A stretch of DNA of 64,000 nucleotides from Halorubrum vacuolatum (lineage in GTDB: Archaea > Halobacteriota > Halobacteria > Halobacteriales > Haloferacaceae). The DNA is taken from positions 186,001-250,000 of the forward strand of contig NZ_FZNQ01000001.1 of assembly GCF_900188065.1 (NCBI RefSeq), given 5' to 3'. This document shows, piece after piece, positions 15,400-33,170 of the stretch. A program made the translations under genes and the position numbers. Position 1 is the stretch's first letter. Each line of letters opens with the position of its first letter. A model generated the notes under the pieces. The model made no database searches, was not told where the DNA came from, and saw only the letters and a program-made list of their open reading frames with translations.

Positions 15400-18300
15400 T
15401 TACGCGATGGTGGTTGCGATCGGGGCGACGAGACCGAGCGCGTTCCCGGCGGTCACCGATCCCGGGTCGCTTTCTGTCTCATCCTCGCTTGGTCCTCCGT
15501 CGACCGATCCTGCGCCACCGGCCTCCTCTGCGGATTCAAGCTCGACGGTCGGCGTGGTGTCGTCCTCGCCGATGACTTGCGCCTCGCTCACGTCGAGTTC
15601 GGCGAGCTGCGTGCCGTCCTCCGAGACGACCTGATACGGACCGGTCGCCTGAACGTTCGTCTCCGTGTAGCCCTCCTCGGGGCCCCACTCGTCGTAGCCG
15701 GTCGTCGAGTACGGGAGGTGGAGTTCGAACTCGCCGTCCCCGTCGGCCTCCGCGTACTGGGTGTAGATGAACGTCTCACCCGTCGGCTTCTCCATCTCGA
15801 CGGCCGCTTGAACTTCCGCACCCGGCTCCGCACCGGAGCCCTCAACGGTCGTGCCGGGGACGCGCTCGAACGTCTTCACGTAGTCATCGGAGAGCCCCTC
15901 CATCAGGCTCGTTCCGAGCGTCTCTTCCGTGTCGACGCCGAGGCCCTGAAGCTCCTGAAGCTGCTGGGCGCCCGGCGCCTGTCCCGGCGTTTCGTCGGCG
16001 TAAACCAACCGATAATGCTCCAGCGCGTCGACGCGCTCGCTCGGGATCCCGGCGACGCCGCCGATCTGTGCCTCGCCGGGTGCATCCTCGACGGCCTGTT
16101 CAGCTTCCTCCATGCTGTCGTACCGTTGGATGAACTCGTCCGGATCGGCCGGAAGGGTCACGATTTCGAGCTGCTCACCGGCCGGAGTCGGGATCTGTTC
16201 GATGTCGTAGGTCACCACGACCGGTTCGGGCTCCATCGCGCTCCCGTAGCCCTCATAGAGCTGCACCATCTGGCTCTCGTAGTACCGCTGGGTCTGTATC
16301 CGGGTGACCGGCTGGAGCGCACCTTCCTCGGTCACCTGATAGACCTGGCGGTTGAAATCCTCCTGTTCGACGTCCGCGTCGTCATACCACGTCACCGGGG
16401 CCGAGAACTTCGAGGTTGGGGCAACCATCTGCCAGTCGATCATGACGTAGCGGGCCTGCGCTTCGGCCTCGTTCGGCTCGTTGAGCCGTTCGAGGACGGT
16501 CTCGGCCTGCTCCTCATCGGGTGCGAGCAGGTAGTTCGCGGCGTCCCGTGCGTTGTTCTGGAACGGATTCGCATACGGGATCCGCTCGCCGAGGACGGTG
16601 ATCCAGTGGCCGTAATCCCACCACGACATCACGCCGTACGCCCCCTCGGGATACTCGTAGCCGTCGTCGCCGGGATGTTCGACCGTTCCGTAGTAATCCA
16701 GCCGGTTATCATGCCCCTCTAATTCCCCCGGATACGGCGTGTTCTCGGACATCCACTCGAGCGAGTCGTCCCAGCCCTGCACCTCGCCGGGCCCCGCATT
16801 GGCGCCGATCTGCCACGCTGTTCCCGTCGCGCCGGCGGCCTCGACCGGGACGATGAGCCCGGGGACGAGGATCGCGATCAGGATCGCCGACACGGTCATC
16901 ACCTGCCAGCCCTCGATCCCCTTCAGCTTCTCACCCGCCTCCGAGATCGTGTCCGCATCGAGGTTCGTGTACGCGATCACCTTCCCGATGACGATGGCGT
17001 TGAGCACGACGACCGGGATCACGAGGTAGTAGCTGAATCGAAGCTGTGTAAACGTCGCCGACAACAGGAACAGAGCCCAGATGACGAGCAGCTGCTCCTC
17101 GGCGGGATAGCGGACGAGATACATCGCGCCGACGAGCAGCAGGAAGCCGGTTACAAGCGCCCCCAATTCGCCGGGGACGCCGACGAGGCCGAACAGCACG
17201 TCTGGGACGGCAGGAAGCGCGATGAAGAGGGCGACGATCCCCAACGCGACGCCGGCATACAGCGTGTGGTTCGTCTCGCTGGAACGGACCAGCGGCGCGA
17301 GAAGGATCCCGAGTAGGGCGATGATCGCGACGAACAGCGTCAGGCCGTACTCGCGGATGATCGGCTCGACGCCCTGTCCCTGTGCAAGCAGCGGTTGTGC
17401 CTCGGCGATTGTTGCTTGGACATCGGTTGCTCCAAGACCGACGTATTGCACGAAGTTCCCGTACAGGTGACTCCAGATGTCCGGGAGCGCAACGATCATC
17501 ACGGCCGCGACACCCGCGAGGATCCCGCCGACAGCGACTGGATAGCGCTCGGGAGCGATCTCGCGGCCTTCGAACCCTCGGGCGAGCGCGCCGAGGAACA
17601 GACAGCCAGCCGCAACGCCGAGCGGAAGGAAGATCTGGCTAAACGAGTACGCCGTGACGCTGAAGCTGAACTCTTCGAGTGGAATAACGAGCAGGAGCCC
17701 GGTGACGGTCATCGAGACCGCACCGACGAAGATCGCCGGTTCGGGGCTGTCGTCGTGAACGACATCCGAGGTGATCGTGACGAGGAAGAAGATGCCGAAG
17801 ATCCCGATCAGGAGGAGGCCGGGCTGCCAGACGTACAGATAGAGCGCGGTGGCGAATCCCGCGAGCGCGCTGTAGATTGCGGGCGTTCGCATGGCCTCGA
17901 AGTCGCGGTCGACGACGAGCTCCCACACCGGCTTGTGGGTGCCCGCCACGCTCAGCGCAACGAGCATGGCGAGGACGGCCACCGTCATGAAGAACGTCTC
18001 GGCGGCGTGGTGCTGGTAGGAGCCGACGAGGCTTCGGTTGAGGAACTGGCCGGGGATGAGCGCCAAGAGCAGCACCCCGAACAGCGCGGGGACCCGTGGG
18101 ACGAACCGGCGGGCGAGATAGTAGGTCGGGATCGCACAGAGCGTGGCCATGACGGCGGTGGCAACGAGCATCACCGCCCCGGCCTGTGCCTCCGTTGGAC
18201 TGCCGAGCCCGACGATGAGGATGACGGTGGCAACCAGCTGATCCCAGAGCGTACCGAACTGACCGGCAAGCGTCCCCTCCGGATATCGCGTCCAGATGTC

Positions 18301-18564
18301 GTACGGCATCGTGAAGGGGTAGTTCATCACCGTGTAGGTGGTTTCACGATAGTGGTACCACGGATCGTTACCGGTGAAGTAGTACTCGCCGTCGATGACG
18401 AACTCGTCATACGACTGGAGGCGGACCCAGAGCATGAACGCCATCAGCGCGGCGATGACCGGGAGATGGTACAGACGGCCGAACACGTCGGCGATGGATG
18501 CGTCCTCGGGAAGCGAGAAGCGCGAGGACGACTCCTGTCTCGACGACCCTGTCGACTGGCTCAT
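15400..18564 (-). CDS. aglB: Archaeal oligosaccharyltransferase AglB (STT3 family)
   Basis: A 1054-residue catalytic subunit that transfers the dolichol-linked glycan to Asn in N-x-S/T of exported proteins. The N-terminal half has about 12-13 membrane spans and an acidic loop motif near residue 60 (FTGNDPWYHYRETTYTVMNY) as expected for the metal site. The hallmark MSWWDYGHWI lies at about residues 645-654, followed by ANPFQNNARDAANYLL. A soluble outer domain continues with YVMIDWQMVAPTSKF (a DK-like/MI-type motif position) and a beta-rich tail ending in a final hydrophobic stretch. Length fits the halobacterial form. It is upstream of the DUF368 gene and divergent from the AglG-like gene. Confidence 0.95.
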   Translation of the reverse strand: MSQSTGSSRQESSSRFSLPEDASIADVFGRLYHLPVIAALMAFMLWVRLQSYDEFVIDGEYYFTGNDPWYHYRETTYTVMNYPFTMPYDIWTRYPEGTLAGQFGTLWDQLVATVILIVGLGSPTEAQAGAVMLVATAVMATLCAIPTYYLARRFVPRVPALFGVLLLALIPGQFLNRSLVGSYQHHAAETFFMTVAVLAMLVALSVAGTHKPVWELVVDRDFEAMRTPAIYSALAGFATALYLYVWQPGLLLIGIFGIFFLVTITSDVVHDDSPEPAIFVGAVSMTVTGLLLVIPLEEFSFSVTAYSFSQIFLPLGVAAGCLFLGALARGFEGREIAPERYPVAVGGILAGVAAVMIVALPDIWSHLYGNFVQYVGLGATDVQATIAEAQPLLAQGQGVEPIIREYGLTLFVAIIALLGILLAPLVRSSETNHTLYAGVALGIVALFIALPAVPDVLFGLVGVPGELGALVTGFLLLVGAMYLVRYPAEEQLLVIWALFLLSATFTQLRFSYYLVIPVVVLNAIVIGKVIAYTNLDADTISEAGEKLKGIEGWQVMTVSAILIAILVPGLIVPVEAAGATGTAWQIGANAGPGEVQGWDDSLEWMSENTPYPGELEGHDNRLDYYGTVEHPGDDGYEYPEGAYGVMSWWDYGHWITVLGERIPYANPFQNNARDAANYLLAPDEEQAETVLERLNEPNEAEAQARYVMIDWQMVAPTSKFSAPVTWYDDADVEQEDFNRQVYQVTEEGALQPVTRIQTQRYYESQMVQLYEGYGSAMEPEPVVVTYDIEQIPTPAGEQLEIVTLPADPDEFIQRYDSMEEAEQAVEDAPGEAQIGGVAGIPSERVDALEHYRLVYADETPGQAPGAQQLQELQGLGVDTEETLGTSLMEGLSDDYVKTFERVPGTTVEGSGAEPGAEVQAAVEMEKPTGETFIYTQYAEADGDGEFELHLPYSTTGYDEWGPEEGYTETNVQATGPYQVVSEDGTQLAELDVSEAQVIGEDDTTPTVELESAEEAGGAGSVDGGPSEDETESDPGSVTAGNALGLVAPIATTIA

Positions 18565-18696
18565 TGGATAGGAGGTATTGGAAAACGGTCATAAGCCTTG
18601 TTATCGCCCACGCCGGGCGCGGTCGGGTGAAACAGAAGGATGGCCATGCGACCCGGACAGAAACCGTTAATCGGTGGACGTTTCAAGGGGCAGTCG

Positions 18697-19659
18697 ATGA
18701 AGGTCTCCGTCGTCGTTTGCACCTACACGATGGACCGTTATGACGTGTTTCGGGAGGCCGTCGAGAGCGCGCTGGCGCAGACGTACGATCCGATCGAGGT
18801 CGTCCTCGTCATCGACGGCAACCCCGAGGTCTACGATCGGGTGGTCGCAGAATTCGGTCAGCACGAGAACGTCGTGGTCCATAACAACGAGGAGAACCGT
18901 GGCATCTCCTATAGCCGGACGAAGGGCGCGGAGTTATCCTCCGGGGAGATCGTCGCGTTCATCGACGACGACGGGGTGGCCGAGGAGGACTGGATCGAAA
19001 CGCACGTCGAGTCTTACAGGGAAACCGATGCGGTCGCGGTCGCCGGCTACGTCGCGCCGAACTGGGTGGCCGAGAAGCCCGCGTTCTTCCCCGAGGAGTT
19101 CTACTGGCTGGTCGGCTGCACGGAACGAGGCTTTGCGGCGGACGGCGAGGAGATCAGAAACGGGTACGGCTCCAACGTCTCCTACAGGCGCGACGTGTTC
19201 CTCGATGTCGGCGGCTACGACGTGAACACCGGACGGAAGGGCGATCGGCATATTCAGGCGCACGAGGCTCCCGTCGGGATCCGGATTCGGGAGGAGTACG
19301 GGAAAGGCGTGCTCTACGTCGAGGACGCGGTGGTGGATCACACGCTCTTCGAGTATCGCGGCGAGTTCCGGTGGCTGCTCTTCCGATCGTTCTGGCAGGG
19401 CTTTTCGAAGCGCGTGATGGAGGTGCTGTATCCCGGCGCACAGGGCAACGAGACTGCCTTCTTGAAGGATCTGTTCGTTCGAGCGTTGCCCGCGCGTGTG
19501 AAGCGAACGATCGGTGAGCGATCGACGGAACCAGCCAAGGAGGCGGTCGCGATCATCGCGTTCACCGGCGCGGTCGGGCTCGGCTATCTCTACGGACTCA
19601 CGAAGCGGGACGTATTGCGTGAGGAAGTCGATCCCGAGACGGAGGCGACGTCGACGTAG
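18697..19659 (+). CDS. aglG: GT2 glycosyltransferase, AglG-like (probable glucuronosyltransferase)
   Basis: A 320-residue family 2 glycosyltransferase. MKVSVVVCTYTMDRYDVFRE opens the GT-A fold, LVIDGNPEVYDRV and VAFIDDDGVAEEDWIETHVE hold the nucleotide- and metal-binding acidic residues (DDD near residue 89), and the acceptor region contains EEFYWLVGCTERGF. A hydrophobic tail near residues 285-305 (AVAIIAFTGAVGLGYLYGL) may anchor it to the inner membrane face. The pattern matches proteins annotated as glucosyl-dolichyl phosphate glucuronosyltransferase AglG. ATG 18697 was chosen since the Rossmann-type strand begins there. It is divergent from aglB. Confidence 0.65.
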   Translation: MKVSVVVCTYTMDRYDVFREAVESALAQTYDPIEVVLVIDGNPEVYDRVVAEFGQHENVVVHNNEENRGISYSRTKGAELSSGEIVAFIDDDGVAEEDWIETHVESYRETDAVAVAGYVAPNWVAEKPAFFPEEFYWLVGCTERGFAADGEEIRNGYGSNVSYRRDVFLDVGGYDVNTGRKGDRHIQAHEAPVGIRIREEYGKGVLYVEDAVVDHTLFEYRGEFRWLLFRSFWQGFSKRVMEVLYPGAQGNETAFLKDLFVRALPARVKRTIGERSTEPAKEAVAIIAFTGAVGLGYLYGLTKRDVLREEVDPETEATST

Positions 19660-19682: not shown

Positions 19683-21131
19683 TCAGCGACCGAGCAGCGG
19701 GACCTCGAACGGCAGGTTGTCTGCGACCGTGGTGCGGAACCTTGCGGAGATACCGAGCAGGAGCGTGAAGTACACGGCTGCGCCGAGGCCGACGAGTCCA
19801 ACGACGAAGACCGCGTTGTACGCGTCGATCCAGCCGAAGTTGGCCTCGCCGAGTTCGCGGGCGACGTAGACGATGACGCCCATACAGAGCGCGGCGATCC
19901 ATTGCCGACCCATCTCGCCGTAGGGAACCGCGAACGCCACGTGCGTGCTGGCGTAGCGGTAGCCGACCACGAGCCCGATCCCGGCCGATGTCGCGGTCGC
20001 GATGGCCGCACCGATCCACCCGATGGTGTAGACGAGCGCGATATTCAACACGAGGTTCGCGCCGATGAAGACGGCGTTGGCCCGAAACGCGAGGTCGGGC
20101 CTGTCGATCCCGTTGAGCGTGTTGAGCAGTTGCTTGTTATATGAGTACGCGAGAATGCCGACGAGCAGGATGGTGAGGACCTGTGCGCCGATCGCGAAGC
20201 CGTCCCCATAGATCCGCATGAGTCGGTCGCCGATGACGGCCGATCCGACGATCCCCGGGATCAGGAAGAGCCCGGCGTACGTGATCGCGTCGTTGGTGAG
20301 CGTGCGAACCATCTCGTCGTCGCCGGCGGCCGACCGTTTGCTCAACTCCGGAAACAGCGTCGTTCGGATCGCGCTTCCGAAGATGTCGAGGAACTTCCCG
20401 AGCGTGTAGGCGATCGCATAGACCCCAGTCAGCCCCGCCGGGACGAACAGCCCGAGGACGATGATGTCCATGTCGCTGAACACCTTCTTTCGCATGCTGC
20501 CGAGCCACGAGTACTTCGCGAAGTCGAACAGCCCGCGGACGTGTCGCCATCGTGGGATCGCGAGCGACGGGCGGACGTAGGCGAACCCGATCACGGCGAT
20601 CACGCCCGTCCCGATAGCGTACCCGAGGAGCATCCCGGACAGCTCCCAGCCGATGAAGACGAGCGCGACCATGGCGAGGTTCCTGGCGGCCTGCTTGCCC
20701 GTACCTAACGGAGCGTAGATGTGGACCCGATGGCTCCCCTTCAGCGCCGAGTTGACCAGCCCGCTGAAGATCGAGACCACGAGCAACAGGACGACGAACT
20801 CCGCGACTGGCCGGCCGACGTAGGCGTTTACCTGATCACGAAAGAGAATAACACCGAGGCCCACGAGAGCGGTGAGGACGGCTTTGACGGCCGTTCCGGC
20901 CGCGAGGTAGGCGTCCGACTCCTCGCTCTCGCTCATCCGTTTGACGATGGCCTGCCCGAACCCGATGCTTTTGACGATCCCCAGCCACGAGACGAGCGCG
21001 AGCGTGATCGCGTAGAAGCCGTACACCTCCTCACCCAGCGTGCGGGTGAAGTAGATCGTCGCGAGGAACCCGATCAGGGAGCCGGCGATCTTTGAGAACA
21101 GATAGACGATCGACGTTTGACCGAGACGCAT
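19683..21131 (-). CDS. Polysaccharide/oligosaccharide flippase (MOP superfamily, AglR-like)
   Basis: A 482-residue integral membrane protein with about 12-14 spans and no soluble domain. Marks include IVYLFSKIAGSLIGFLATIY at the N-terminus, FARTLGEEVYGFYAI-type loop, and FDFAKYSWLGSMRKKVFSDM near residue 220, which are typical of Wzx-like flippases. In Haloferax, AglR is a related protein needed for moving dolichol-linked sugar across the membrane. The stop lies 23 bases from the AglG-like gene end (convergent). It is probably the flippase that delivers lipid-linked glycan to AglB. Whether it moves the whole glycan or a single charged dolichyl-phosphate sugar is not decidable. Confidence 0.75.
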   Translation of the reverse strand: MRLGQTSIVYLFSKIAGSLIGFLATIYFTRTLGEEVYGFYAITLALVSWLGIVKSIGFGQAIVKRMSESEESDAYLAAGTAVKAVLTALVGLGVILFRDQVNAYVGRPVAEFVVLLLVVSIFSGLVNSALKGSHRVHIYAPLGTGKQAARNLAMVALVFIGWELSGMLLGYAIGTGVIAVIGFAYVRPSLAIPRWRHVRGLFDFAKYSWLGSMRKKVFSDMDIIVLGLFVPAGLTGVYAIAYTLGKFLDIFGSAIRTTLFPELSKRSAAGDDEMVRTLTNDAITYAGLFLIPGIVGSAVIGDRLMRIYGDGFAIGAQVLTILLVGILAYSYNKQLLNTLNGIDRPDLAFRANAVFIGANLVLNIALVYTIGWIGAAIATATSAGIGLVVGYRYASTHVAFAVPYGEMGRQWIAALCMGVIVYVARELGEANFGWIDAYNAVFVVGLVGLGAAVYFTLLLGISARFRTTVADNLPFEVPLLGR

Positions 21132-21189: not shown

Positions 21190-21978
21190 TTATCCGTCCC
21201 CGAGGAGGTCGGCCAGATCGGGATGCGCCCGGAACTCCTCGGGGATGTCCTCGCCCCGCCGGACGCGGTCCCGTATTTTCTGCCACTCGGCGTGTCTGCG
21301 GAAGACCTGCACGGGGATCCGATCGAGATCGAGGACCCTCGCGAACGCCAGTCGGTGTTGTCCGCACATGTTCCAGCGCAGTTCGCCGTGTCGGCCGATG
21401 TCGACAGCGACCTCGTTAGCGAGCGGATGCATCGTGTCGTTGAGCCCGCTCCAGGCCGCCTCCGGGTCCGTTTCGAGCAACTGGCGCTGGGATCGATATC
21501 CCTCGGTCCGAATTCGGCTATAGAGGGCCTCCATCTTCACACCACGCTCCGCCACTTCCGCCGGGTCGTACTTGTCCGTGAGCGCAGTCACCTCCCAGGC
21601 CATTCCTTCGTTGACCCGTTGTGCTATGGCTCTCGGACGGGTTCGTTGCATGAATGGATCGCCACCGAGATCCCAGTCCCCGTCGACGACCCATCCACGG
21701 CGTTTCGAGGACCGTTCCCCGCTCGTGTACGCGATCGCGTCGGGATCGACGTGGATGATCTTGTACGGATCGGCGTCGGTGTACTTCTCCGGATAGATGG
21801 TTCTGAACGCCGAGATCGCCATTCGGACTAGCGTGCTGGTCACGAGGTATGCTGCTGCTGCCACCGGCCGCGGTAGCGATCGGATCCGTCGATGCAGCTG
21901 CAGCTTCCAGCTGAGATATCGAGAGGCATAAAGCACCAGCCTGTCCGGGCTCCAATCACGGTGCGTCAGGTTTTTCAT
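21190..21978 (-). CDS. ParB/Srx-like paralogue 1 of the glycosylation island
   Basis: A 262-residue protein of unknown function, the first of five paralogues. A basic, amphipathic N-terminal region (residues 1-62) is followed by DADPYKIIHVDPDAIAY (68-84), G-D-W-D (100-103), GYRSQRQLL (160-168), ANEVAVDIGRHGEL (187-200), the ParB box II-like MCGQHRLAFARVL (204-216), RRHAEWQKIR (227-236) and HPDLADLL (252-259). The G-x-H-R core after a beta strand resembles the ParB/sulfiredoxin fold, whose members bind nucleotides. No helix-turn-helix for DNA binding is visible. It lies 58 bases after the start of the flippase gene, same strand. Fold is inferred; activity is unknown. Confidence 0.65.
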   Translation of the reverse strand: MKNLTHRDWSPDRLVLYASRYLSWKLQLHRRIRSLPRPVAAAAYLVTSTLVRMAISAFRTIYPEKYTDADPYKIIHVDPDAIAYTSGERSSKRRGWVVDGDWDLGGDPFMQRTRPRAIAQRVNEGMAWEVTALTDKYDPAEVAERGVKMEALYSRIRTEGYRSQRQLLETDPEAAWSGLNDTMHPLANEVAVDIGRHGELRWNMCGQHRLAFARVLDLDRIPVQVFRRHAEWQKIRDRVRRGEDIPEEFRAHPDLADLLGDG

Positions 21979-22029
21979 TAGCTTTGAGCCCAGTACCTCT
22001 TTTTCGGATAAAAGTGTGATACCAACATT

Positions 22030-22791
22030 TCAGCCGAGTACGTCTTTGAGGTCGGCGTGGTTCGCTAGTTCCTTCCGATCTTCCGGCAGTCCGTCGTTAC
22101 ATACCTCATCTCGAAGGTTCTGCCACTGCTCGTGTCTCACAAGCACCTGTACCGGGACCGGTATCTGCAATATCTTTGCGATCGCAAGCCGATGGCTTCC
22201 CTTTCCCTGATGGTGAATCTTTCCGTTCCGATCGATGACGACGAGGACCTCAAGCTTCTGTCCGTATCCGCTTCTTTGCCTCGTGTTTTCACCATCTTTC
22301 GCTCGTCTGTAGCCGTTGTTTTTTATATCCTCATACAGTGACTCGACGTACTCACATCGTTCTTTCACCCGCTCCTCGTTACCATTATATTTTGATCTAA
22401 ACTTTTCAAAATATATCGTTTCTTCCCAGTCCTTCTGCTCTTCAAAACGTTGCCGCAACCCCGCGATCGTCTTATCCTCCGAGGTTGGAACGAGGTTGGC
22501 CTCGGCATCCCAATTCCCCCCTTTGACCTTGCCCAAGCCGTTACGTGGTGTTGAAAACTTGTAATGTCTGTGTTCAACGTTTTGTGGATCAACGACTATC
22601 GGGCGAAACGGAGACGGCGGCGAGTCATATCTGACCCTGTTCGACAAACCATTTTTAAACGTATGTATTTTGAACAGCTTTTGATCTATTGAAAATTGTT
22701 GGTTGATGAAATTTCTCGACTGTTTAGAAAATGCTACTATGCCCTCCTCTCGAACTATTTCGGCGGCCCGCTTCGCATAGTAGCTGACCAT
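22030..22791 (-). CDS. ParB/Srx-like paralogue 2 of the glycosylation island
   Basis: A 253-residue paralogue in unusually AT-rich DNA for this window. Start ATG 22791 was preferred to 22875 because a TATA-like TATAAATA (minus strand, about 22823-22830) lies about 36 bases before it and because MVSYYAKRAAEIVREEGIVA then aligns with the starts of paralogues 3 and 4. Counted from 22791, the marks are G-N-W-D at about 92-95, CEYVESLYEDIKNNGYR at 146-162, EVLVVIDRNG at 181-190, KGSHRLAIAKIL at 197-208 and VRHEQWQNLR at 218-227. It groups with paralogue 5 by the CEYV segment. The His-Arg motif is intact. Function unknown. Confidence 0.65.
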   Translation of the reverse strand: MVSYYAKRAAEIVREEGIVAFSKQSRNFINQQFSIDQKLFKIHTFKNGLSNRVRYDSPPSPFRPIVVDPQNVEHRHYKFSTPRNGLGKVKGGNWDAEANLVPTSEDKTIAGLRQRFEEQKDWEETIYFEKFRSKYNGNEERVKERCEYVESLYEDIKNNGYRRAKDGENTRQRSGYGQKLEVLVVIDRNGKIHHQGKGSHRLAIAKILQIPVPVQVLVRHEQWQNLRDEVCNDGLPEDRKELANHADLKDVLG

Positions 22792-22819
22792 GTATTCGTA
22801 CTTGGGATATTTGTTCAGC

Positions 22820-22832
22820 TTATTTATACTCT
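22820..22832 (-). promoter_or_regulatory. TATA-like element for ParB/Srx-like paralogue 2
   Basis: On the minus strand the sequence reads GAGTATAAATAAG, about 36 bases before ATG 22791. It lies inside the longer reading frame from 22875 and argues against that start. Confidence 0.45.
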
Positions 22833-22984
22833 CGCTCTGGGGTAAATCAATACTTGGGATCATTGGATAATCCACCTGATGTTAAACGTTTTGTTGGACC
22901 CAGACGCCGATAATTCGAGTATATTTCGAGGGTGGACGTACCGAACCCGGAGGTTAAAATCCGTTGCTGGAGTACCGGGGAGAT

Positions 22985-24139
22985 ATGTGGGGAACACGGG
23001 ATTTCTCCTACCGAAAGCTTCGGAGGAAAATCACCCAAGACGGTGTGTTAGATGCGGTAAACGCCACCGCCGAATTGCCTTTTCGGAGCCTTGTTGCCCC
23101 GCCAATATTCGATTATCTGATTCGACACGATCATGTTCGTCCGATCCCACGTCACGAGCTTTTAAGCCTCGCGACGGAGGTTGCCCGCGTGGAGGATTCC
23201 GACGAGGAGCCGTTCGCAGCGGCCATCGGTCCCGGGTACGTGTGTCCCTCGACGGGTTTGGTCATCACCGGGGACGGGCGACCAGTCAGCGAGTCCGTCG
23301 GGCCGGCTGGAGACGAACATAACGGCGTGATCAAATCGGTCGTTCGACTCGCGTTCGTTGACGGCATCGATCTCTTTCGGACGGTCATGACCCACGATGT
23401 GGAGACGCTCGCGGATCAGGCAGTCCGGTTGGATACGATCTGTCCACTATCACATCGGTATATAAATTATTATCACTGGCTCGTTGAGACTGTCCCTCGA
23501 ATCCGATATGCACGGGCATACGAGAACCGGACCGACGACGAAGTGACGTATCTCCTCCGGTCGGATGCTCCTCCATACGTCGATGAAACGCTCAACCTTC
23601 TTGGCATCCCGGAGAATAAAGTCGAACGAGCGACGGGGTCGATCTACCGAGGATCACGGGTGGTCGTCCCGGCGTTTCCGGCACGGACTGCGTCCGACTA
23701 TCGCTGGATCCGTAACGCCATCCTTGAGAAGGTAGCAGCATCTGACACCGTTATGACTGGTGGCAAAAACGTGTATATTTCACGTGCTAACGCGATAGAA
23801 CGGCGGATTGTTAACGAAGGGGCCGTTATAGATTCCCTTTCGACATTCGGTTTCGAACCGTATCTCCTTGAGGAGCGGTCCGTCGCGGAAAACGTCCGCC
23901 TGTTCCATGAGGCGGATGCCGTGATCGGCGTACACGGTGCCGGGTTGACCGACCTCATCTACTGTGATGATGCCACGGTGTTCGAGCTGTTCGGTGCGAA
24001 GGTTAAGGGACCGTATAGACGACTGGCGGACACGATTGGTGTGCAGTATCAACCGATTCAGTGCCGGCCCGCTTCGACCGATGTCTTCGTCGACATCGAC
24101 CATCTAGAGCGAACCCTCACCAACGTTCTCGATCGGTGA
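22985..24139 (+). CDS. GT61 (DUF563) glycosyltransferase
   Basis: A 384-residue protein of glycosyltransferase family 61. Family marks: INYYHWLVETVPRIRYARAY near residue 162 (the typical N-Y-Y-H-W segment), PAFPARTASDYRWIR near 235, KNVYISRANAIERRIVNE near 260 and DAVIGVHGAGLTDLIYCDDA near 316 (the conserved GxHGAxLTN-type motif). Relatives transfer xylose, GlcNAc or related sugars. ATG 22985 follows a GGAG-type sequence; TTG 22964 is an alternative. It is divergent from paralogue 2, and its end overlaps the end of paralogue 3 by 23 bases (convergent). It presumably adds a sugar to the island's glycan. Confidence 0.8.
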   Translation: MWGTRDFSYRKLRRKITQDGVLDAVNATAELPFRSLVAPPIFDYLIRHDHVRPIPRHELLSLATEVARVEDSDEEPFAAAIGPGYVCPSTGLVITGDGRPVSESVGPAGDEHNGVIKSVVRLAFVDGIDLFRTVMTHDVETLADQAVRLDTICPLSHRYINYYHWLVETVPRIRYARAYENRTDDEVTYLLRSDAPPYVDETLNLLGIPENKVERATGSIYRGSRVVVPAFPARTASDYRWIRNAILEKVAASDTVMTGGKNVYISRANAIERRIVNEGAVIDSLSTFGFEPYLLEERSVAENVRLFHEADAVIGVHGAGLTDLIYCDDATVFELFGAKVKGPYRRLADTIGVQYQPIQCRPASTDVFVDIDHLERTLTNVLDR

Positions 24140-24989
24140 CTTCTCCACTCGTCTTTCGATGAATGTCCGAGAGATCTGGATGGGTGAGATAGTGGCGGAT
24201 CTCATTTGGAACGGATCCCGGTGTCTCCGCTATGCGTTCCCGAACCTGCTGCCATCGATCGTGGCGGGCCGCGATCCGAACCGGAATCTCCTCAATTTCG
24301 AGTATCTTCGCGATTGCGAGTCGATGCCGTCCGTCAACGAACAGATACCGACCATCCCGACCGATATCGACCGCAACCTCATCGTGTCGATTGAATCCAT
24401 CGCCACTGACATACATATCAGGAGGTATATAATCGCGCTCGACGAGTTCCCGCTTGCTGCGATAGCCTTGCTCACGGATACGTTGATACAGTCGATCGAC
24501 GTCAGCACAGGCGTCCCATACTTCGCTCTCACTTGAACATCCCCGCCATCTGGTCACACCCCGATTAGCATGTGTGATCACCTGCTGAATGAACTCGATG
24601 TCACTCCACTCATCGCCGTGTTTGAATCGCCTGTGGAGCGCCTGCACCACCGGTAACTCCTCCACGGTCTCCTCGTTTCGATCCCATTCACCGGCTTGAA
24701 CCGTTCCGAGATCCTGCCATTGAAACCGTCCTGGATTTGGTCCTCTCCCAGTAACTCGGGTGATCTCAGAGGGGTCAACGTGAACGATCTTAAACGGATC
24801 CGCAACGGCAGTGTGTGGATAGGAGTTCCACCAACAAAGCAATCTTTGATACCGCGGCCGACCGTATAGACCCTTTTTGCCAAGTTCATGTCGAAGATAC
24901 CGGGGTACGAAGCGGGCTGATTTTCTCATCAGAGGGACGAATCCTTCGGAGCGCCACACCCGTCGCGCCCGAAAAACGAGGTTCTTCAT
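24117..24989 (-). CDS. ParB/Srx-like paralogue 3 of the glycosylation island
   Basis: A 290-residue paralogue with the cleanest ParB-like core. Seen in order: a basic N-terminus with RKSARFVPRYLRHELGKK (22-39), DPFKIVHVDPSEI (64-76), G-E-W-D (100-103), GYRSKRELVERD (175-186), HDEVAVDIGRDGRYLFVDG (202-220), GRHRLAIAKILEIEEIPVRI (220-239), ARHDRWQQVRERI (241-253) and HPDLSDI. The DGRHRL motif corresponds to box II of ParB-type domains. The start overlaps the stop of paralogue 4 by 4 bases, so the two are translationally coupled. It lacks a recognisable DNA-binding domain. Its activity is unknown. Confidence 0.68.
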   Translation of the reverse strand: MKNLVFRARRVWRSEGFVPLMRKSARFVPRYLRHELGKKGLYGRPRYQRLLCWWNSYPHTAVADPFKIVHVDPSEITRVTGRGPNPGRFQWQDLGTVQAGEWDRNEETVEELPVVQALHRRFKHGDEWSDIEFIQQVITHANRGVTRWRGCSSESEVWDACADVDRLYQRIREQGYRSKRELVERDYIPPDMYVSGDGFNRHDEVAVDIGRDGRYLFVDGRHRLAIAKILEIEEIPVRIAARHDRWQQVRERIAETPGSVPNEIRHYLTHPDLSDIHRKTSGEVTDRERW

Positions 24990-25765
24990 CTATCCAAGAG
25001 GTCCTGTAGATCGGGATGCGCTTCGCTGATCTCCTCTGGCACGTCACTCGACCGTCGAACGGTACTGCGGATCCGTTGCCACGCGGCGTGCCGGGTCCTG
25101 ACGAGCATCGGTACCTTCTCGATATCCAACACCCTCGCTATCGCCAATCGATGGGTTCCGGAATACTTCTTTCCAAGGCTTCCGTCCCTAAAGATGTTGA
25201 CGGCGATCTCGTTGAGTGATGGATGGATCGCATCGTTGTTGCGCCGAACCGTGTCTTGAGGATTCATACGAAGCAGCTCTGTCTGTGATCTGTACCCGTT
25301 CTTTTTGATCGACTCATATACCGCCTCGATCCGTTCGACGGCGTCATGAAATTCCCCTTCCGGGAGATCGCGTTGCTGGTAGAGTTCCCACAGTTCCGTG
25401 TGTTTCCACTCAATATCCTGTCGGTAGTGCTCTTCGACCGCCACGAAGAATGGATGCTCCTCAAGCGGTGTTCGCTCAAGATCCCACGTCCCTCCGACGA
25501 CCCGCCCCCATCCACGGGGAGGCCCGCTGTAATAATACTCGACGGCATTCGGATCGACATAAATGTACTTAAATGGATCCGCATCAGTATATCTCGCGAA
25601 TCCCAGACCGCGATGAGCGCGTATTCCCGTCCGAAACATCGCTCGTCCGACCCGCTGGTTTCTGAAACAGTATGGACCGAGTGTTCGCCAGAGGAACCAC
25701 CCCACTTCGTTTCTAAGGTGTGTTATTCCCCCCTCACGATACATCTCCCAAGCCCTTCGGATCAT
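24986..25765 (-). CDS. ParB/Srx-like paralogue 4 of the glycosylation island
   Basis: A 259-residue paralogue, first in a coupled pair with paralogue 3. Marks: MIRRAWEMYREGGITHLRNE at the start, DADPFKYIYVDPNAVEYY (61-78), G-T-W-D (92-95), SIKKNGYRSQTELL (152-165), NEIAVNIFRDGSL (185-197), SGTHRLAIARVLDIEKVP (202-219), TRHAAWQRIR (224-233) and HPDLQDLL (250-257). It is closest to paralogue 1 (shared YTDADP and PEE-HPDL ends). About 200 bases separate it from the divergent AglQ-like gene; this gap probably carries both promoters. Function unknown. Confidence 0.66.
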   Translation of the reverse strand: MIRRAWEMYREGGITHLRNEVGWFLWRTLGPYCFRNQRVGRAMFRTGIRAHRGLGFARYTDADPFKYIYVDPNAVEYYYSGPPRGWGRVVGGTWDLERTPLEEHPFFVAVEEHYRQDIEWKHTELWELYQQRDLPEGEFHDAVERIEAVYESIKKNGYRSQTELLRMNPQDTVRRNNDAIHPSLNEIAVNIFRDGSLGKKYSGTHRLAIARVLDIEKVPMLVRTRHAAWQRIRSTVRRSSDVPEEISEAHPDLQDLLDR

Positions 25766-25924
25766 TTCGGTTGCGTCCTGTTATCCATGAAGAGGGCTAT
25801 TCCTTTCTATCGGAGCCCGTGTTTGGTTGTCAATCGCTCTGAGTGGCTCAGAAGGGCTCAGCATTCGTAGCCGATCACGAACGCATCTCTCGAAAGCCCG
25901 TTGGCGGCAGTATGTCCTTTCGGG

Positions 25925-25933
25925 ATATTTATA
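25925..25933 (+). promoter_or_regulatory. TATA-like element before the AglQ-like gene
   Basis: ATATTTATA lies about 36 bases before ATG 25966 in the 200-base gap between divergent genes. The distance is slightly longer than the leaderless norm and implies a short leader. Confidence 0.4.
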
Positions 25934-25965
25934 TCGACGGTGTCTCGTACGTAGCGGCGTGACGG

Positions 25966-27099
25966 ATGTCAGGTCCCCAGCCCGGTTCCCACAAGCGGAC
26001 GATCACCGTCCACGAGCTGCTGGAACGGAGCGCCCGTGCCGCGCTCGATCTCCAGCGGGAGGATGGATCGTTTCCACCGGGTCAAAACGGGGTCTATGAT
26101 GAGCCTGAGACGCCCGTGCGGACGACATCACACTGGTTAACAACGTTGTCGAAGGTTTATGCGCTCACCGGTGAGAGGGTATTCGCTGACGCAGCCAGTG
26201 ACGCCGCCGATTATCTACTCGGTGATGACGCTCGACCTCACGGCAACACTTTTTATTCGCGAACCGTGGCCGATAAGGACGCCTGTGACGGAGTGATCGG
26301 ACAGGCTGCACCGATCAGGGGCCTTTCGTTGGCGGGAAGAATACTCGATCGAGAGGAGTTGTACAAAACGGCGGAAGAAGTGTTTTTTCTACATCCATTC
26401 GACCGACGTCTCGGCCTATGGGAACGAGTTGAAATAGATGGTGAACGGCTGTCGTTTGATCGGACGGTAAATCACCAGTTGACCTTTGCCGCCGCCGGTG
26501 CTGAACTGCTCCGCTCGGTGGAGACGGTTAGGGATCCCCTTGAGACCTTTCTTGATCAACTGGAAAAAAACATGACGCAGCGGAAGAATGGCGTCATCAG
26601 ACATTACATTAATCCCCCGGTGAGCAAGGTAATTCGGACGGTTCTCGGACAACCCCGGCATTGGCCGCTGTTATGGAATATCCTCGCTTTCGGCTATCAC
26701 TCGTTCTCCGAGGAGAGACGTCGAAAGGAGATCGGTTATCTCCCCGTCGTCGTGTCCTCGTTAGCCAGGCTTCATCGGGAGTTTCCGGACCACGAACTGT
26801 GGCAGCGTGGCAGTATCGACACGGCAGTCGAGTATCTCACCTCACGCGATTCCGATGGTGCATATCGAATACGGACCGCTGCCTCTGGAAGCATGTTGCC
26901 GGGCATCGAGGCGGGATACGGACTGTTCGTCTTCGGATATATGGACCCGTGTCGGGATCTGATCGCCGCGGATATCTCGGAGCATTTCGATGCTGAACGT
27001 GGGTTATTGGATCGAAACGCGACCGATCCGATATCACAGTCCTCGAAGATATACAACCTCGCACTCTTTCCCGACCCACAGTTCACGATTAGGCTATAA
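25966..27099 (+). CDS. AglQ-like (alpha/alpha)6-barrel protein of agl clusters
   Basis: A 377-residue soluble protein predicted to form a six-hairpin alpha toroid like GH88/GH105-type hydrolases. It opens with RTITVHELLERSARAALDLQ and then REDGSFPPGQNGVYDEPETP (about residues 28-47), a stretch I recognise from proteins annotated as AglQ in haloarchaeal agl clusters. TTSHWLTTLSKVYALTGERV, CDGVIGQAAPIRGLSLAGRI and DGAYRIRTAASG follow. In Haloferax, AglQ is needed for normal S-layer N-glycan assembly, possibly trimming or isomerising a precursor. Its end overlaps the end of paralogue 5 by 6 bases (convergent). The identity is likely but based on remembered motifs. Confidence 0.6.
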   Translation: MSGPQPGSHKRTITVHELLERSARAALDLQREDGSFPPGQNGVYDEPETPVRTTSHWLTTLSKVYALTGERVFADAASDAADYLLGDDARPHGNTFYSRTVADKDACDGVIGQAAPIRGLSLAGRILDREELYKTAEEVFFLHPFDRRLGLWERVEIDGERLSFDRTVNHQLTFAAAGAELLRSVETVRDPLETFLDQLEKNMTQRKNGVIRHYINPPVSKVIRTVLGQPRHWPLLWNILAFGYHSFSEERRRKEIGYLPVVVSSLARLHREFPDHELWQRGSIDTAVEYLTSRDSDGAYRIRTAASGSMLPGIEAGYGLFVFGYMDPCRDLIAADISEHFDAERGLLDRNATDPISQSSKIYNLALFPDPQFTIRL

Positions 27100-27819
27100 A
27101 ACGTCGTGCAGATCGGGGTGGGGCTCACCGTCCGCGGTTCCGTCCATCGCGACGGCCGCCCGATGCCGTTGCCACTCCTTGTGTCGGATTAACACATGCA
27201 CTGGGATGGAATCGATATTCAATATGCGGGCGATCACCACCCGATGGTGTCCATCATGAAGCAAGAGTTCACCATCCCTTCCGATCAGCACAGATACCCC
27301 CGTCGGATCCCGGGTGCTCCAGGGGCGTCGTGGGTCCGTCACCGGATCCCGCTGATCGCTTTGATACCCGTTCTGTTTCATATCGAGATAGAGCTCGTCG
27401 ACATACTCACACCGCTTTTGTAGAAACTCCTCACTCGTCGTATAGCCAAAGAACTCACCGTCGGACTCGATACGATCTCTTCCATGTCGGTAGTATGCGG
27501 TTTCGGTCCACGACTTGCCCTCATGGAAGCGCTCGACGAGCCCCTTGTATACCTCGGTCTCCGTGAGTTTCACTCGGTGGCTGTCCCAGTCTCCATCGAG
27601 GATCTTTCCGACGTATCTATCCTCCGGGATGAACCGCGATTCGGAACGATAGCTGATCGCGGACGGCGAGACCCGGATCGGATTCAATGGCTCCGGTATC
27701 GGGCCTGGATTCGTCACGCTCAGTAGCCGCTTACGGGCTGCCAGTCGATATTCAAGCGGTACCGTCCGTGCATACAGGGCGCCCGCTATTCGGCGGGTGT
27801 ACCTAGATAGTCGATCCAT
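27094..27819 (-). CDS. ParB/Srx-like paralogue 5 of the glycosylation island
   Basis: A 241-residue paralogue that groups with paralogue 2. Marks: a basic N-terminus (MDRLSRYTRRIAGALYARTV), NPIRVSPSAISY (46-57), G-D-W-D (76-79), KRCEYVDELYLDMKQNGYQS (135-154), GVSVLIGRDGELLLHDG (174-190), GHHRVVIARILNIDSIPVHV (190-209), IRHKEWQRHR (211-220) and HPDLHDVL at the C-terminus. The usual VDP is replaced by VSP. It lies 53 bases downstream of the GT4 gene on the same strand, so it may be co-transcribed with a glycosyltransferase. Function unknown. Confidence 0.65.
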   Translation of the reverse strand: MDRLSRYTRRIAGALYARTVPLEYRLAARKRLLSVTNPGPIPEPLNPIRVSPSAISYRSESRFIPEDRYVGKILDGDWDSHRVKLTETEVYKGLVERFHEGKSWTETAYYRHGRDRIESDGEFFGYTTSEEFLQKRCEYVDELYLDMKQNGYQSDQRDPVTDPRRPWSTRDPTGVSVLIGRDGELLLHDGHHRVVIARILNIDSIPVHVLIRHKEWQRHRAAVAMDGTADGEPHPDLHDVL

Positions 27820-27872
27820 ATTCGCTTGTCTCCTCGATCGCGGTACGCTGTTCCCGACGGTTCATCCTCGTA

Positions 27873-28988
27873 TTAGCGTTCATTGGCTCGTTTTATTTCA
27901 TTTTGAAAGAGTTCGTCATACGACGCGATCGCGACGCTCACATCGAAGTCGGTCGCACGCTCATACAGCGTTTCCGCGTCGTGTGGATCCCTGAGTGTCT
28001 CCTCGATGGCGGTAGTCAATGCGCGATCATCGCCGACCGGTACGAGCCTTCCGTATGTTCCTCCACTGAGAATTTCGGAGGGGCCACTCCGACAGTCCGT
28101 CGACACCACCGGACAGCCGCAAGCCATTGCCTCTATCAACACGAGGCCGAATCCCTCGTGTGTCGATGAGAGAACAAACACGTCCGCGGCGCCCATGTAG
28201 CGGTACGGATCCTCGATGAATCCCGGGAAATAGACACGCTCTTGGATCCCGAGCGCCGCTGCTTGCTCCCGTAATGCCTCCGTCTCCGGCCCACTGCCAA
28301 ACAGGACGAGACGTCTGTGATCCCCGTTCAGTCGTGCAAACGACGCAAGCAGGGTATTGAACCCTTTCTGTGGTTCATGACGCCCGCCCGCCAGTATAAC
28401 CTCCGTCGACTCATCGAGAAACCACTCATGCTGTACCGGTTTGGATGCGTTCTCCCTGATCTGCTCTACCCGCACCGGATTATAAATCATCGAGACGGCT
28501 GTCTCCTTCAGCAACGTCCGGTCAAGGAGTTCACGGCGAACACCCTTCGAGACTGCAACCGCGTGGTCGGCGAGCGGATAGCCGATAGACGCACCGAAGC
28601 GCACGAGTCGATCCTTGTTATCGCTCAGTCGGTGCGACAACACGTTGTGTTCGCTAATTACGAGCCGTGTTCCAGTACGGGACAGTCGATGGGCTGCGAT
28701 GGCGATCAGGTTCGGCTCTGTCATCATCGAGTACAGGACGTCCGGGTCGTGTGCGTTGAGGTACCGACGGAGCGGGAGGAGACTCGTGGCCACACGGTCC
28801 GCTCCGAGGTTGATGACTGTGACCTCGTCAGGTACGTCGGTGAGCAACTCACCCGACGCGTCGACGAGTACCAGATCGACGTCATACCCCCGGTGGGCCA
28901 ATCCGCTGGATAGATCCAATGCGACACGTTCCGCCCCACCGATGGTCATCGACGTGAGAAAGATAGCGATCGAGTTTCGTTCCGCCAT
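27873..28988 (-). CDS. Family 4 glycosyltransferase
   Basis: A 371-residue GT-B enzyme. The N-terminal domain starts IAIFLTSMTIGGAERVALDL with the Gly-Gly-Ala-Glu-Arg loop common in GT4 proteins. The C-terminal nucleotide-sugar domain shows VILAGGRHEPQKGFNTLLAS near residue 188 and the E-x7-E motif in STHEGFGLVLIEAMACGCPV near 275, plus DCRSGPSEIL. It likely adds a hexose to the lipid-linked glycan at the cytoplasmic face. It precedes ParB/Srx-like paralogue 5 by 53 bases on the same strand and is divergent from the GT2 gene at 29125. Donor sugar unknown. Confidence 0.88.
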   Translation of the reverse strand: MAERNSIAIFLTSMTIGGAERVALDLSSGLAHRGYDVDLVLVDASGELLTDVPDEVTVINLGADRVATSLLPLRRYLNAHDPDVLYSMMTEPNLIAIAAHRLSRTGTRLVISEHNVLSHRLSDNKDRLVRFGASIGYPLADHAVAVSKGVRRELLDRTLLKETAVSMIYNPVRVEQIRENASKPVQHEWFLDESTEVILAGGRHEPQKGFNTLLASFARLNGDHRRLVLFGSGPETEALREQAAALGIQERVYFPGFIEDPYRYMGAADVFVLSSTHEGFGLVLIEAMACGCPVVSTDCRSGPSEILSGGTYGRLVPVGDDRALTTAIEETLRDPHDAETLYERATDFDVSVAIASYDELFQNEIKRANER

Positions 28989-29124: not shown

Positions 29125-30039
29125 ATGTCGGATCGAGGGCCGCCACGTGTGTCCATCATCGTCCCCGTCTACAACGATCCCGACGGCATCCGAACCACCC
29201 TTAAGTCCCTCCTCAGCCAATCCACCGATCCGGCACAGATCATCGTCGTCGACAACGGCTCAACCGATCGGACCCCCGAAACCGTCCGCTCTTATATGGA
29301 CGATCACGCCAATCTCGCCCTCCTCTTCGAACACGAGATCCAGTCCTCCTATGCCGCACGGAACACGGGTATCCGCCACACCGACGCGGAGATCCTCGCC
29401 TTCGTCGACGCCGACATGACCGTCCCGGAGGACTGGCTCGAATCCGCGATCGAAACGTTCCGGATCACCGATGCCGGCTACATGGGCTGTCCCGTCGAAC
29501 TCACGCTCCCGGAGAACCCGCCACTCCCGGCCCGCTACGACCACCACACCGGTTTTCCGGTTGAGGGGTACCTCGAGTCCCAACACTTCGCCCCGACCTG
29601 TTGTCTGTTCGTCCGTCGCGCGGTCTTCGAGGACGTCGGCCTCTTCGATCACCGCCTCGAATCCGGCGGGGACAAGGAGTTCGGCAACCGGGTCCATGCC
29701 GCCGGCTACGAGCTCCACTTCGCCGCGGACGTCACCATGTACCACCCGACGAGGAACACCCTCAGAGCGCACATGAAAAAGGACCGCCGCGTCGGCCGTG
29801 GCCTCTGTCAACTCCAGCGGTACCACCCGGAGCGCTACGGCACGCCCGGGGTTCCACCGCGACCGTCGGGGATCAAACGTCCCGAGCGCGACCTGTCGCC
29901 GCGGGACCGGGTGGCCTTCGGCGCGCTCGGAACCGGCCTCACCGGCGTGCGTGCGCTCGGCTATTACGAGGAGTTCCTTCGGGGCTCGTCCCCTGATCCC
30001 GCCGACGGGATCCCCGAACTCGGCCGGATGGACGGCTGA
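29125..30039 (+). CDS. Family 2 glycosyltransferase
   Basis: A 304-residue GT-A enzyme without membrane spans. PRVSIIVPVYNDPDGIRTTL opens the fold, IIVVDNGSTDRTPETVRSYM is the donor-binding loop, ILAFVDADMTVPEDWLESAI carries the DxD motif near residue 94, and DVGLFDHRLESGGDKEFGNR provides the acceptor-side acidic residues near 180. It lies 38 bases before the AglF-like gene on the same strand, consistent with an operon that makes and uses a nucleotide sugar. The acceptor and linkage are not determined. Confidence 0.88.
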   Translation: MSDRGPPRVSIIVPVYNDPDGIRTTLKSLLSQSTDPAQIIVVDNGSTDRTPETVRSYMDDHANLALLFEHEIQSSYAARNTGIRHTDAEILAFVDADMTVPEDWLESAIETFRITDAGYMGCPVELTLPENPPLPARYDHHTGFPVEGYLESQHFAPTCCLFVRRAVFEDVGLFDHRLESGGDKEFGNRVHAAGYELHFAADVTMYHPTRNTLRAHMKKDRRVGRGLCQLQRYHPERYGTPGVPPRPSGIKRPERDLSPRDRVAFGALGTGLTGVRALGYYEEFLRGSSPDPADGIPELGRMDG

Positions 30040-30077: not shown

Positions 30078-30863
30078 ATGCAAGCGATCGTCCTCGCCGC
30101 CGGCAAGGGCACCCGACTCCAGCCGCTCACCGACGACCGGCCGAAGGTGCTCGTCGAGGTGAACGACAAGCCGCTCATCGAGGACGTCTTCGACAACCTG
30201 ATCGGGATCGGCGCAAGCGAGCTGATCGTCGTCGTCGGCTACAAGGCCGAACAGATCATCGACCGCTACGGCGACAGCTACGAGGGCGTCCCGATCACCT
30301 ACACCCACCAACGGGAGCAGCTCGGGCTCGCCCACGCCATCCTGCAGGCGGAGCCATACATCGACGGCCCGTTCATGCTCATGCTCGGCGACAACGTCTT
30401 CCGCGGCAACCTCGGCGACGTGGTCAACCGACAGGGAGAGGAGCGGGCGGACGCCGCGTTCCTCGTCGAGGAGGTCCCCTACGAGGAGGCGAGCCGCTAC
30501 GGCGTCCTCGACACCAACGAGTACGGCGAAGTCGTCGAAGTCGTCGAGAAGCCCGACGATCCGCCGAGTAACCTCGTCATGACCGGCTTTTACACCTTCA
30601 CGCCCGCCATCTTCCACGCCTGCCACCTCGTGCAGCCGTCCGACCGCGGCGAGTACGAACTCCCCGACGCGATCGACCTGCTTATCGAGTCGGGGCGAAC
30701 CATCGATGCGATCCGCCTCGACGGTTGGCGCATCGACGTTGGCTATCCCGAGGACCGCGACCGGGCGGAAGAGTGGCTCGACGAACTGGCTGCGAATAGC
30801 GACGAAGCCACTGAGGAGAGCGAGAAACAGCCGACGGATGAAGACGTCGCCGCCGAGAACTGA
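30078..30863 (+). CDS. aglF: Sugar-1-phosphate nucleotidyltransferase (AglF-like)
   Basis: A 261-residue enzyme that makes an NDP-sugar, probably UDP-glucose from UTP and glucose-1-phosphate. MQAIVLAAGKGTRLQPLTDD and RPKVLVEVNDKPLIE form the nucleotide signature, FMLMLGDNVFRGNL the metal-binding Asp, and YGVLDTNEYGEVVEVVEKPD and TGFYTFTPAIF the sugar site. DGWRIDVGYPEDRDRAEEWL is the second metal-site region. The short length and lack of a left-handed helix tail fit AglF of Haloferax. Together with AglM it can supply UDP-glucuronate for glycan assembly. Thymidylyltransferase activity is the main alternative. Confidence 0.75.
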   Translation: MQAIVLAAGKGTRLQPLTDDRPKVLVEVNDKPLIEDVFDNLIGIGASELIVVVGYKAEQIIDRYGDSYEGVPITYTHQREQLGLAHAILQAEPYIDGPFMLMLGDNVFRGNLGDVVNRQGEERADAAFLVEEVPYEEASRYGVLDTNEYGEVVEVVEKPDDPPSNLVMTGFYTFTPAIFHACHLVQPSDRGEYELPDAIDLLIESGRTIDAIRLDGWRIDVGYPEDRDRAEEWLDELAANSDEATEESEKQPTDEDVAAEN

Positions 30864-31826: not shown

Positions 31827-33170
31827 TCACCAGGTCAATCCCTCGTAGGTGATCCCTTCCCGACGCTCGATCACCCGCCGACCGTCGATCACGACGGGGG
31901 TGGCCATCGTGTCGAACGCATCGTCGAGCGCGGCGAACTCGTCCCAGTCGGTGACGACGAGCGCGCCGACGGCATCCGCCAACGCGTCGGCCGCGGTGTC
32001 CGCATACGCGATCTCGGGGAACCGCCCGCGCATCCTCTCGGTCGCGACCGGGTCGTAGCCCACGACCTCGGCGCCGCGCTCCAGCAGGCCCTCGATGACG
32101 GGGATCGCCCGGGAGTTCCGGATATCATCGGTCCCGGGTTTAAACGCGAGCCCGAGCACGGCGACGCGCTCGCCGGCGACGTCGACGTGCGCGTCGAGGA
32201 GTTCGAGGAGCCGCTCCGGCTGTCGGTCGTTCACCGCGACGGTCGCGTTCAACAGGGCGGGGTCGTAGCCGACCGCCCGCCCGGCCGCTCGCAGCGCGTC
32301 GACGTCCTTCGGAAAACAACTTCCCCCGTAGCCGACCCCCGACCGGAGGAAGCGCTCGCCGATCCGGTCGTCGAGCCCGACGGCGGCCATCACCTCGTAG
32401 GCGTCGACGCCGAACTCCTTACAGAGGTTTCCGAGGTCGTTCGCGAGCGAGATCTTCGTCGCGAGCGCGGCGTTGTTGGCGTATTTGATCATCATCGCGG
32501 TCTCCGGGTCCGTCCGCACGATGGGGATCTCCCGTCCGGCGACGATCGGTTCGTAGAGCCGTTCGAGCCGATCGAGGGCCCACTCGTCGTCGGTGCCGAG
32601 GACGATCTTATCGGGGCTCTGGAAGTCCGCAACCGCCGAGCCCTGCCGCAGGAACTCCGGGTTCGTGGCGAGTGAGAGACGATCCCGTAGACATCCTCCC
32701 GTCCCGTTGCCGTTCGATTCACCTCCCTCATCGCCCGCTCCGTCCGCCACACCGTCAAAGAGTGCCTCACGAACCGTCGCGATCGACGGCGGGGTGACCG
32801 TGCTTTTGATGACGACGAGTCCCCGCTCGTCGGGCTCCAGCCCCGCGAGCGTCGTTCCGACGTCACGAGCGGCCGCCGAGAGTGCGCTCACGTCGATGTC
32901 GCCGTCCTCGGTCGAGGGCGTCCCGATCGCGAGAAACGTCAGATCGGAATCGGCGACGTCGTCGGCGGACGTCGTCGCACGGAGTCGATCCCCCGCGTGT
33001 CGTTCGAGGAGCGCGTCGAGCCCCGGTTCGTGGATCGGTGCGTGTCCCTCGTTCAGCGCCGACACCACCTCGGGATCGATGTCGATGGCGACCACCTCGT
33101 GTCCCGCCTCCGCGAGACACGCCGCGAGCGTGGTTCCGACGTAGCCGCTTCCGACGACGGTGACTTTCAT
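31827..33170 (-). CDS. aglM: UDP-glucose 6-dehydrogenase (AglM-like)
   Basis: A 447-residue enzyme that oxidises UDP-glucose to UDP-glucuronate with NAD. The N-terminal Rossmann motif is [20 protein letters not shown], followed by [12 protein letters not shown] with the NAD-binding Asp. The catalytic cysteine lies in [20 protein letters not shown] near residue 270. The C-terminal UDP-binding part has [21 protein letters not shown] Gly/Asn-rich insertion near residue 135 ([12 protein letters not shown]) is unusual. It fits the need for uronic acids in halobacterial N-glycans and completes a pathway with the AglF-like gene. Confidence 0.9.

Follow-up and report, generated by a model that had tools for sequence, protein, structure and literature searches.

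Which reaction do five diverged, closely spaced proteins carry out amid genes for archaeal N-glycosylation, and why are there five of them? The question is raised by a 64,000-nucleotide stretch of the Halorubrum vacuolatum genome (hereafter, the window), in which an initial annotation, made from the sequence alone, had placed five homologous ParB/sulfiredoxin (Srx)-like proteins on the minus strand. All five open reading frames (ORFs) were found there: paralogue 1 (P0001, 262 aa; 21190..21978), paralogue 2 (P0002, 253 aa; 22030..22791, with a possible alternative GTG start upstream at 22875), paralogue 3 (P0003, 290 aa; 24117..24989), paralogue 4 (P0004, 259 aa; 24986..25765, overlapping paralogue 3 by 4 nt), and paralogue 5 (P0005, 241 aa; 27094..27819). 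With a probability of roughly 0.55, we propose that these proteins belong to an undescribed ParB/Srx-fold family that binds nucleotide through a G-x-H-R motif and phosphorylates a hydroxyl group on a glycan, a glycolipid, or a head group. Homology, the predicted fold, the conserved motifs, the deep divergence of the paralogues, their glycan gene neighborhoods, and the joining of some bacterial relatives to a WbdD-like methyltransferase are what we observe; from these we infer nucleotide binding, kinase chemistry, and the acceptor.

The paralogues share an invariant set of residues

The five proteins are homologous along their length, with pairwise identities of 27 to 42%. Their five-way alignment contains the motifs listed in the initial annotation, with invariants including G-x-W-D, V-x-I-x-R-x-G, G-x-H-R, R-H-x-x-W-Q-x-x-R, and H-x-D-L-x-D, the last of which reads HADL in one copy and HPDL in the others. 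Two details of that list did not extend to the wider family: the Gln of R-H-x-x-W-Q-x-x-R is not conserved, and the His of G-x-H-R is replaced by Asn or Asp in some relatives. Across 60 diverse members, 14 columns are invariant (G100, W102, D103, W128, R211, G213, G220, R223, R242, H243, W246, R250, H270, and D272; residues are numbered according to P0003 throughout). When the window copies were inspected for broken catalytic-site residues, all 14 were intact in each of the five. Because these residues hold across 60 diverse relatives, the sharing of motifs, as read from the alignments, is far beyond chance. Candidate active-site residues in these motifs are D103 of G-x-W-D, the H222-R223 pair, and H243. 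Spurious ORFs were rejected as an explanation, since homologues recur in many genomes and the five ORFs contain no internal stops.

A search of the same genome with a profile of the five revealed one further copy, on a different contig (C42, locus L036), bringing the total to six. Profile searches matched several hundred relatives; of 391 genomes sampled from the class, 153 (~39%) contained relatives, with up to seven copies per genome. Orthologues of paralogue 3 in other genera are 52 to 66% identical. In the tree, the five window copies fall into five separate old clades together with members from other haloarchaeal families; recent tandem duplication was therefore rejected. This depth fits different substrates for the different copies, without proving them, and one substrate per copy is plausible. 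A single-copy substitute for SerK was also rejected, given six diverse copies and the glycan context. Bacterial occurrence is scattered and rare (6/299 genomes in the phylum of locus L110 and 1/301 in that of L114). A scan of viral sequences with a single protein gave no match, and an alignment-based scan returned two records, both with the same match. In one IMG/VR viral contig (L132:7920-9308), a related ParB/Srx domain is joined to a different methyltransferase (PF13578).

The predicted fold belongs to the ParB/Srx superfamily

Existing family models do not recognize these proteins: no Pfam or NCBIfam model reaches its cut-off on members of the family, a profile search of the PDB by sequence gave no match, and plasmid records label relatives "hypothetical protein." Among NCBIfam models, P0003 matches that of the serine kinase SbnI best (0.0029, in register), and the SerK model matches 5 of the 60 members, each weakly. 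The curated cut-offs of the SerK/SbnI models (NF053625 and NF033589) were not reached, the best score, 17 bits, lying far below the 350 required.

An AlphaFold2 model of P0003, built with 76 sequences as input, had a predicted local distance difference test score (pLDDT) of 87.2 and a predicted template modeling score of 0.81. The leading Foldseek matches in the PDB were nearly all sulfiredoxin, PadC, Noc, ParB, KorB, SbnI, and SerK, and VIA-align returned the same set, with plant Srx and Noc leading at Z 5.4 and SerK (5x0b) at Z 4.0. The Foldseek alignment to SbnI spans 36 residues at 1.3 Å with 42% identity. In the model, the core strands and the helix following G-x-H-R are canonical for the fold, while an insertion of ~100 residues, mostly helical and holding W128 and G175-Y176, lies between the first strands and the G-x-H-R hairpin. 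A profile comparison with archaeal SerK-like proteins gave 92.4% probability over the hairpin, the helix, and the next strand, whereas an unrelated profile used as a control reached 15.5%. G220 and R223, which form the Box II/P motif GxxR, are near-invariant in the 76 archaeal and bacterial rows. A match to an unrelated fold would have spoken against this assignment, and the top structural matches were nearly all of the ParB/Srx type instead. With the alpha-beta core present in the model and nearly all of the leading PDB matches from the superfamily, the prediction makes the family a member of it; the structural searches and the SerK-like profile agree with the initial annotation that the fold is of the ParB/Srx type and that G-x-H-R corresponds to Box II. 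The family is undescribed and unannotated, probably a variant of the ParB/Srx kinases and of WbdD-like terminators, and not a new fold.

The roles of Glu30 in SerK, of Srx, and of Box II in ParB are established for those families. The present family resembles SerK and SbnI in its predicted fold, its G-x-H-R motif, a weak in-register sequence similarity, and the lack of a helix-turn-helix (HTH). It differs in the helical insertion before the G-x-H-R hairpin, in its own motifs GxWD, RHxxW, and HPDL, in its glycan gene context, and in scoring far under the model cut-offs. A 2025 survey of the fold reported that an Arg-to-Ala change in the GxxR motif abolishes nucleoside triphosphate (NTP) binding and that fusions to bacterial S-adenosylmethionine (SAM) methyltransferases bound ATP (PMC12704722). 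These proteins share the fold with the family described here. The domain analysis of the survey was based on PF02195, and no glycan link was drawn (PMC12704722). PF02195 (ParB_N) had no match in the H. vacuolatum genome or among members of the family, and because this model does not detect the family, the survey probably missed most of it.

Some bacterial members are fused to a WbdD-like methyltransferase

WbdD is a kinase-methyltransferase that caps the O-antigen with methyl-phosphate. The family domain carries a SAM methyltransferase fused to its C-terminal side in Nealsonbacteria, Syntrophorhabdus, Chloroflexi, Azospirillum, and Nevskiales; a WOR-3 copy (L095) is similar to these fusions but is interrupted by masked bases. 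A profile of the fused methyltransferase matched WbdD best among PDB entries (E 7e-7), other methyltransferases following at 1e-4 or weaker. A predicted structure of a fusion (pLDDT 90.5) had WbdD as its top Foldseek match (7.8e-9). In the VIA comparison, WbdD scored Z 17.8 (root mean square deviation 2.6 over 185 residues). Because other methyltransferases came within ~1 Z of this score, the ranking of the predicted structure does not by itself decide for WbdD.

More specific evidence came from individual residues. In an alignment with Escherichia coli WbdD, all five fusions carry Y16, H132, H133, and R203 unchanged, together with R36 of the WbdD anion pocket; the assignment of R203 relies on a six-row MAFFT alignment and a structural alignment ending at 412/210, the hidden Markov model alignment ending earlier. 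Mutating Y16, H132, H133, or R203 of WbdD abolishes phosphate methylation while the kinase stays active, and the nearest other methyltransferases do not conserve R203 (PMC3482155). Because the phosphate-site residues of WbdD are all invariant, the fused enzyme is expected to methylate a glycan phosphate. No other kinase domain, eukaryote-like or otherwise, was detected in the fusion proteins, which end with the methyltransferase; as the only other domain, the ParB/Srx domain would occupy the position of the kinase. The likeness to WbdD consists in the homologous methyltransferase with these residues and in the location in glycan assembly loci. In contrast, WbdD has a eukaryote-like kinase that follows its methyltransferase on the C-terminal side, whereas the ParB/Srx domain of the fusions is N-terminal, and the five window proteins contain no methyltransferase domain. 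ORF6 of Klebsiella pneumoniae O7 offers a precedent for a methyl-phosphate terminator with an unrelated, formerly unrecognized kinase fold, though its kinase resembles AmiN and not ParB/Srx (PMC11231755).

The HPDL tail of the family lines up with the HPEW that directly follows Y16 in WbdD (L092:3690-3780 versus WbdD residues 14 to 36). In sequence terms, this hints that the WbdD N terminus may have descended from such a fusion, which we treat as a lead only, given that this Tyr is absent from the window proteins. One or two kinase-like genes with an HGDLHxxN-type motif come immediately after the family gene in Pontibacter and Halanaerobium (L118:9926-11514, L120:10007-11571, L123:7066-8624, and L124:9560-12225).

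Family members recur among glycan assembly genes

In the window, the five paralogues lie 2.6 to 9.3 kb from aglB. Enrichment near glycosylation genes in other genomes had been put forward as a check on their function. For each of 39 further haloarchaeal loci, we took the three closest genes (117 in all) and set them against 117 genes drawn from 35 control positions displaced by a fixed distance in the same genomes; one trained gene caller served for both sets. The neighbors included 10 Polysacc_synt flippases, 7 epimerases, 6 glycosyltransferases of family 61 (GT61), and 3 of family 2 (GT2), none of which were listed in the control. Fisher's test gave 9e-6 for this enrichment when one hidden match per family was allowed in the control, a value that is indicative, as neighbors inside one island are not independent. 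Genes of the paralogue 1 type (56 to 64% relatives) adjoin an orthologous flippase, 73 to 80% identical, in several genera, and this pairing was found in at least six other loci. In locus L037, genes of the paralogue 1 and paralogue 3 types recur together, with a 64% GT61 homologue between them. Among 102 neighbors of bacterial members were 15 glycosyltransferases of family 4 (GT4), 7 flippases, 6 GT2 enzymes, 4 Kdo/WaaP kinases, and 3 NeuB proteins.

In at least nine genomes, members of the subfamily of the sixth copy form a pair with a CDP-alcohol phosphatidyltransferase, and the conserved run containing the pair also includes DUF7475, a zinc dehydrogenase, a PTPS-like protein, and a GT4 enzyme. 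This run fits head-group or glycolipid chemistry and possibly represents an uncharacterized archaeal pathway of that kind. The order DUF7475, ParB/Srx-like protein, CDP-alcohol phosphatidyltransferase was seen at L036:9291-11309 on contig C42 of H. vacuolatum and at L050, L052, L091, L093, L097, L100, and L106.

A proposed glycan kinase and its alternatives

On the kinase proposal, NTP-dependent phosphorylation would take place on glycan or head-group hydroxyls. Nucleotide is predicted to bind through G-x-H-R (Box II/P), with R223, and H222, holding its phosphates, and D103 or H243 is predicted to assist the acceptor hydroxyl. The targets of the window copies would be different residues, or different stages, of the lipid-linked N-glycan, phosphorylated ahead of flipping and of transfer by AglB. 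The suggestion of the initial annotation that these may be kinases acting on sugars gains independent support from the phosphate-methylating, WbdD-like fusions, while catalysis and substrate are points that we still infer. Several observations weigh against this proposal. The individual fold matches are weak (best Foldseek E 0.029; Z 5.4), and no counterpart of the catalytic Glu30 of SerK could be mapped, the region being unaligned in the SerK-like profile comparison; D103 is a candidate replacement. Some WbdD relatives (serotype O5) add only methyl (PMC11231755). No WbdD-like methyltransferase was detected in the H. vacuolatum genome, and the inference of a cap is therefore not directly transferable to it. 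Finally, at least five bacterial loci (L105, L118, L120, L123, and L124) have kinase-like genes adjoining or close to that of the family, which would be redundant if the family domain were always the kinase.

These kinase-like genes, which may do the phosphorylation, also bear on an unlikely alternative, namely, that the proteins are noncatalytic nucleotide-binding modules (pseudo-kinases or NTP switches) that recruit or regulate glycosyltransferases, kinases, or methyltransferases in glycan assembly. The ParB fold acts as a switch in ParB, and no catalytic Glu is assigned in the present family. Noncatalytic nucleotide binders of the fold have also been discussed (PMC12704722). However, D103, R211, H222, R223, R242, H243, R250, H270, and D272 look like an active site and not like a docking surface, and the methyltransferase fusions have no other kinase domain in the protein. 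A role closer to that of SerK appears improbable; on this reading, the proteins would phosphorylate small alcohols or head groups, supplying building blocks for lipid head groups or phosphodiester-linked substituents, and would not act on glycan chains. It would accommodate the conserved phosphatidyltransferase run of the sixth-copy subfamily and the fact that the nearest named models are free-serine kinases, but the main contexts of the family are flippases and glycosyltransferases, not lipid synthesis. Moreover, the methyltransferase of WbdD uses phosphate on a disaccharide and not the tested monosaccharide phosphates (PMC3482155).

A DNA-binding partition or regulatory protein of the ParB, Noc, or SbnI kind is suggested by the fold kinship with ParB, Noc, and KorB but is largely excluded. 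Members had no HTH in Pfam searches at E values up to 10, which together with the lack of PF02195 matches bears out the initial annotation that there is no DNA-binding domain; up to seven diverse copies per genome, the glycan context, and the WbdD-type methyltransferase fusions likewise argue against it. Extending the glycan kinase proposal beyond the window, we tentatively suggest that ParB/Srx-fold proteins are glycan kinases of a new class, one more kinase fold employed in capping with phosphate or methyl-phosphate, and that haloarchaea have expanded this class into paralogue sets that place phosphate at several positions of lipid-linked N-glycans and lipid head groups. If true, phosphate would join the known repertoire of haloarchaeal surface glycans, ParB-fold kinases would gain a role beyond free serine, and methyl-phosphate chain termination would have another independent solution.

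The surrounding N-glycosylation island

The N-glycosylation island described in the initial annotation was recovered, with an AglB oligosaccharyltransferase carrying STT3 (1.4e-22) and AglB_core-like (1.5e-19) domains on the minus strand (15400..18564) and further glycan genes around it. A GT2 enzyme (18640..19659, plus strand) is followed by the Polysacc_synt flippase (19683..21131, minus strand), directly downstream of paralogue 1. A GT61 enzyme (22985..24139, plus strand; PF04577, 4.5e-21) lies between paralogues 2 and 3. Beyond paralogue 5 are a GT4 enzyme (27873..28988, minus strand; PF00534, 7.5e-38), a second GT2 enzyme (29125..30039, plus strand; PF00535, 1.7e-28), a sugar nucleotidyltransferase (30078..30863, plus strand; PF00483, 5.4e-42), and a UDP-sugar dehydrogenase (31827..33170, minus strand; PF03721, 1.2e-44). 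The G+C content over the paralogues (22001-28000) is 52 to 56%, compared with 62 to 70% around them, consistent with an exchanged glycan island.

Two proteins of the island had no Pfam match. A 377-aa protein (25966..27099, plus strand) is a recurrent partner of the family, with 34 to 52% homologues in at least seven other islands holding ParB/Srx-like genes; its weak profile match to unsaturated glucuronyl hydrolase (E 0.0027) suggests that it is perhaps a uronate-acting toroid enzyme. A 288-aa ORF (30929-31795, plus strand), between the nucleotidyltransferase and the UDP-sugar dehydrogenase, has one homologue (44%), in L037.

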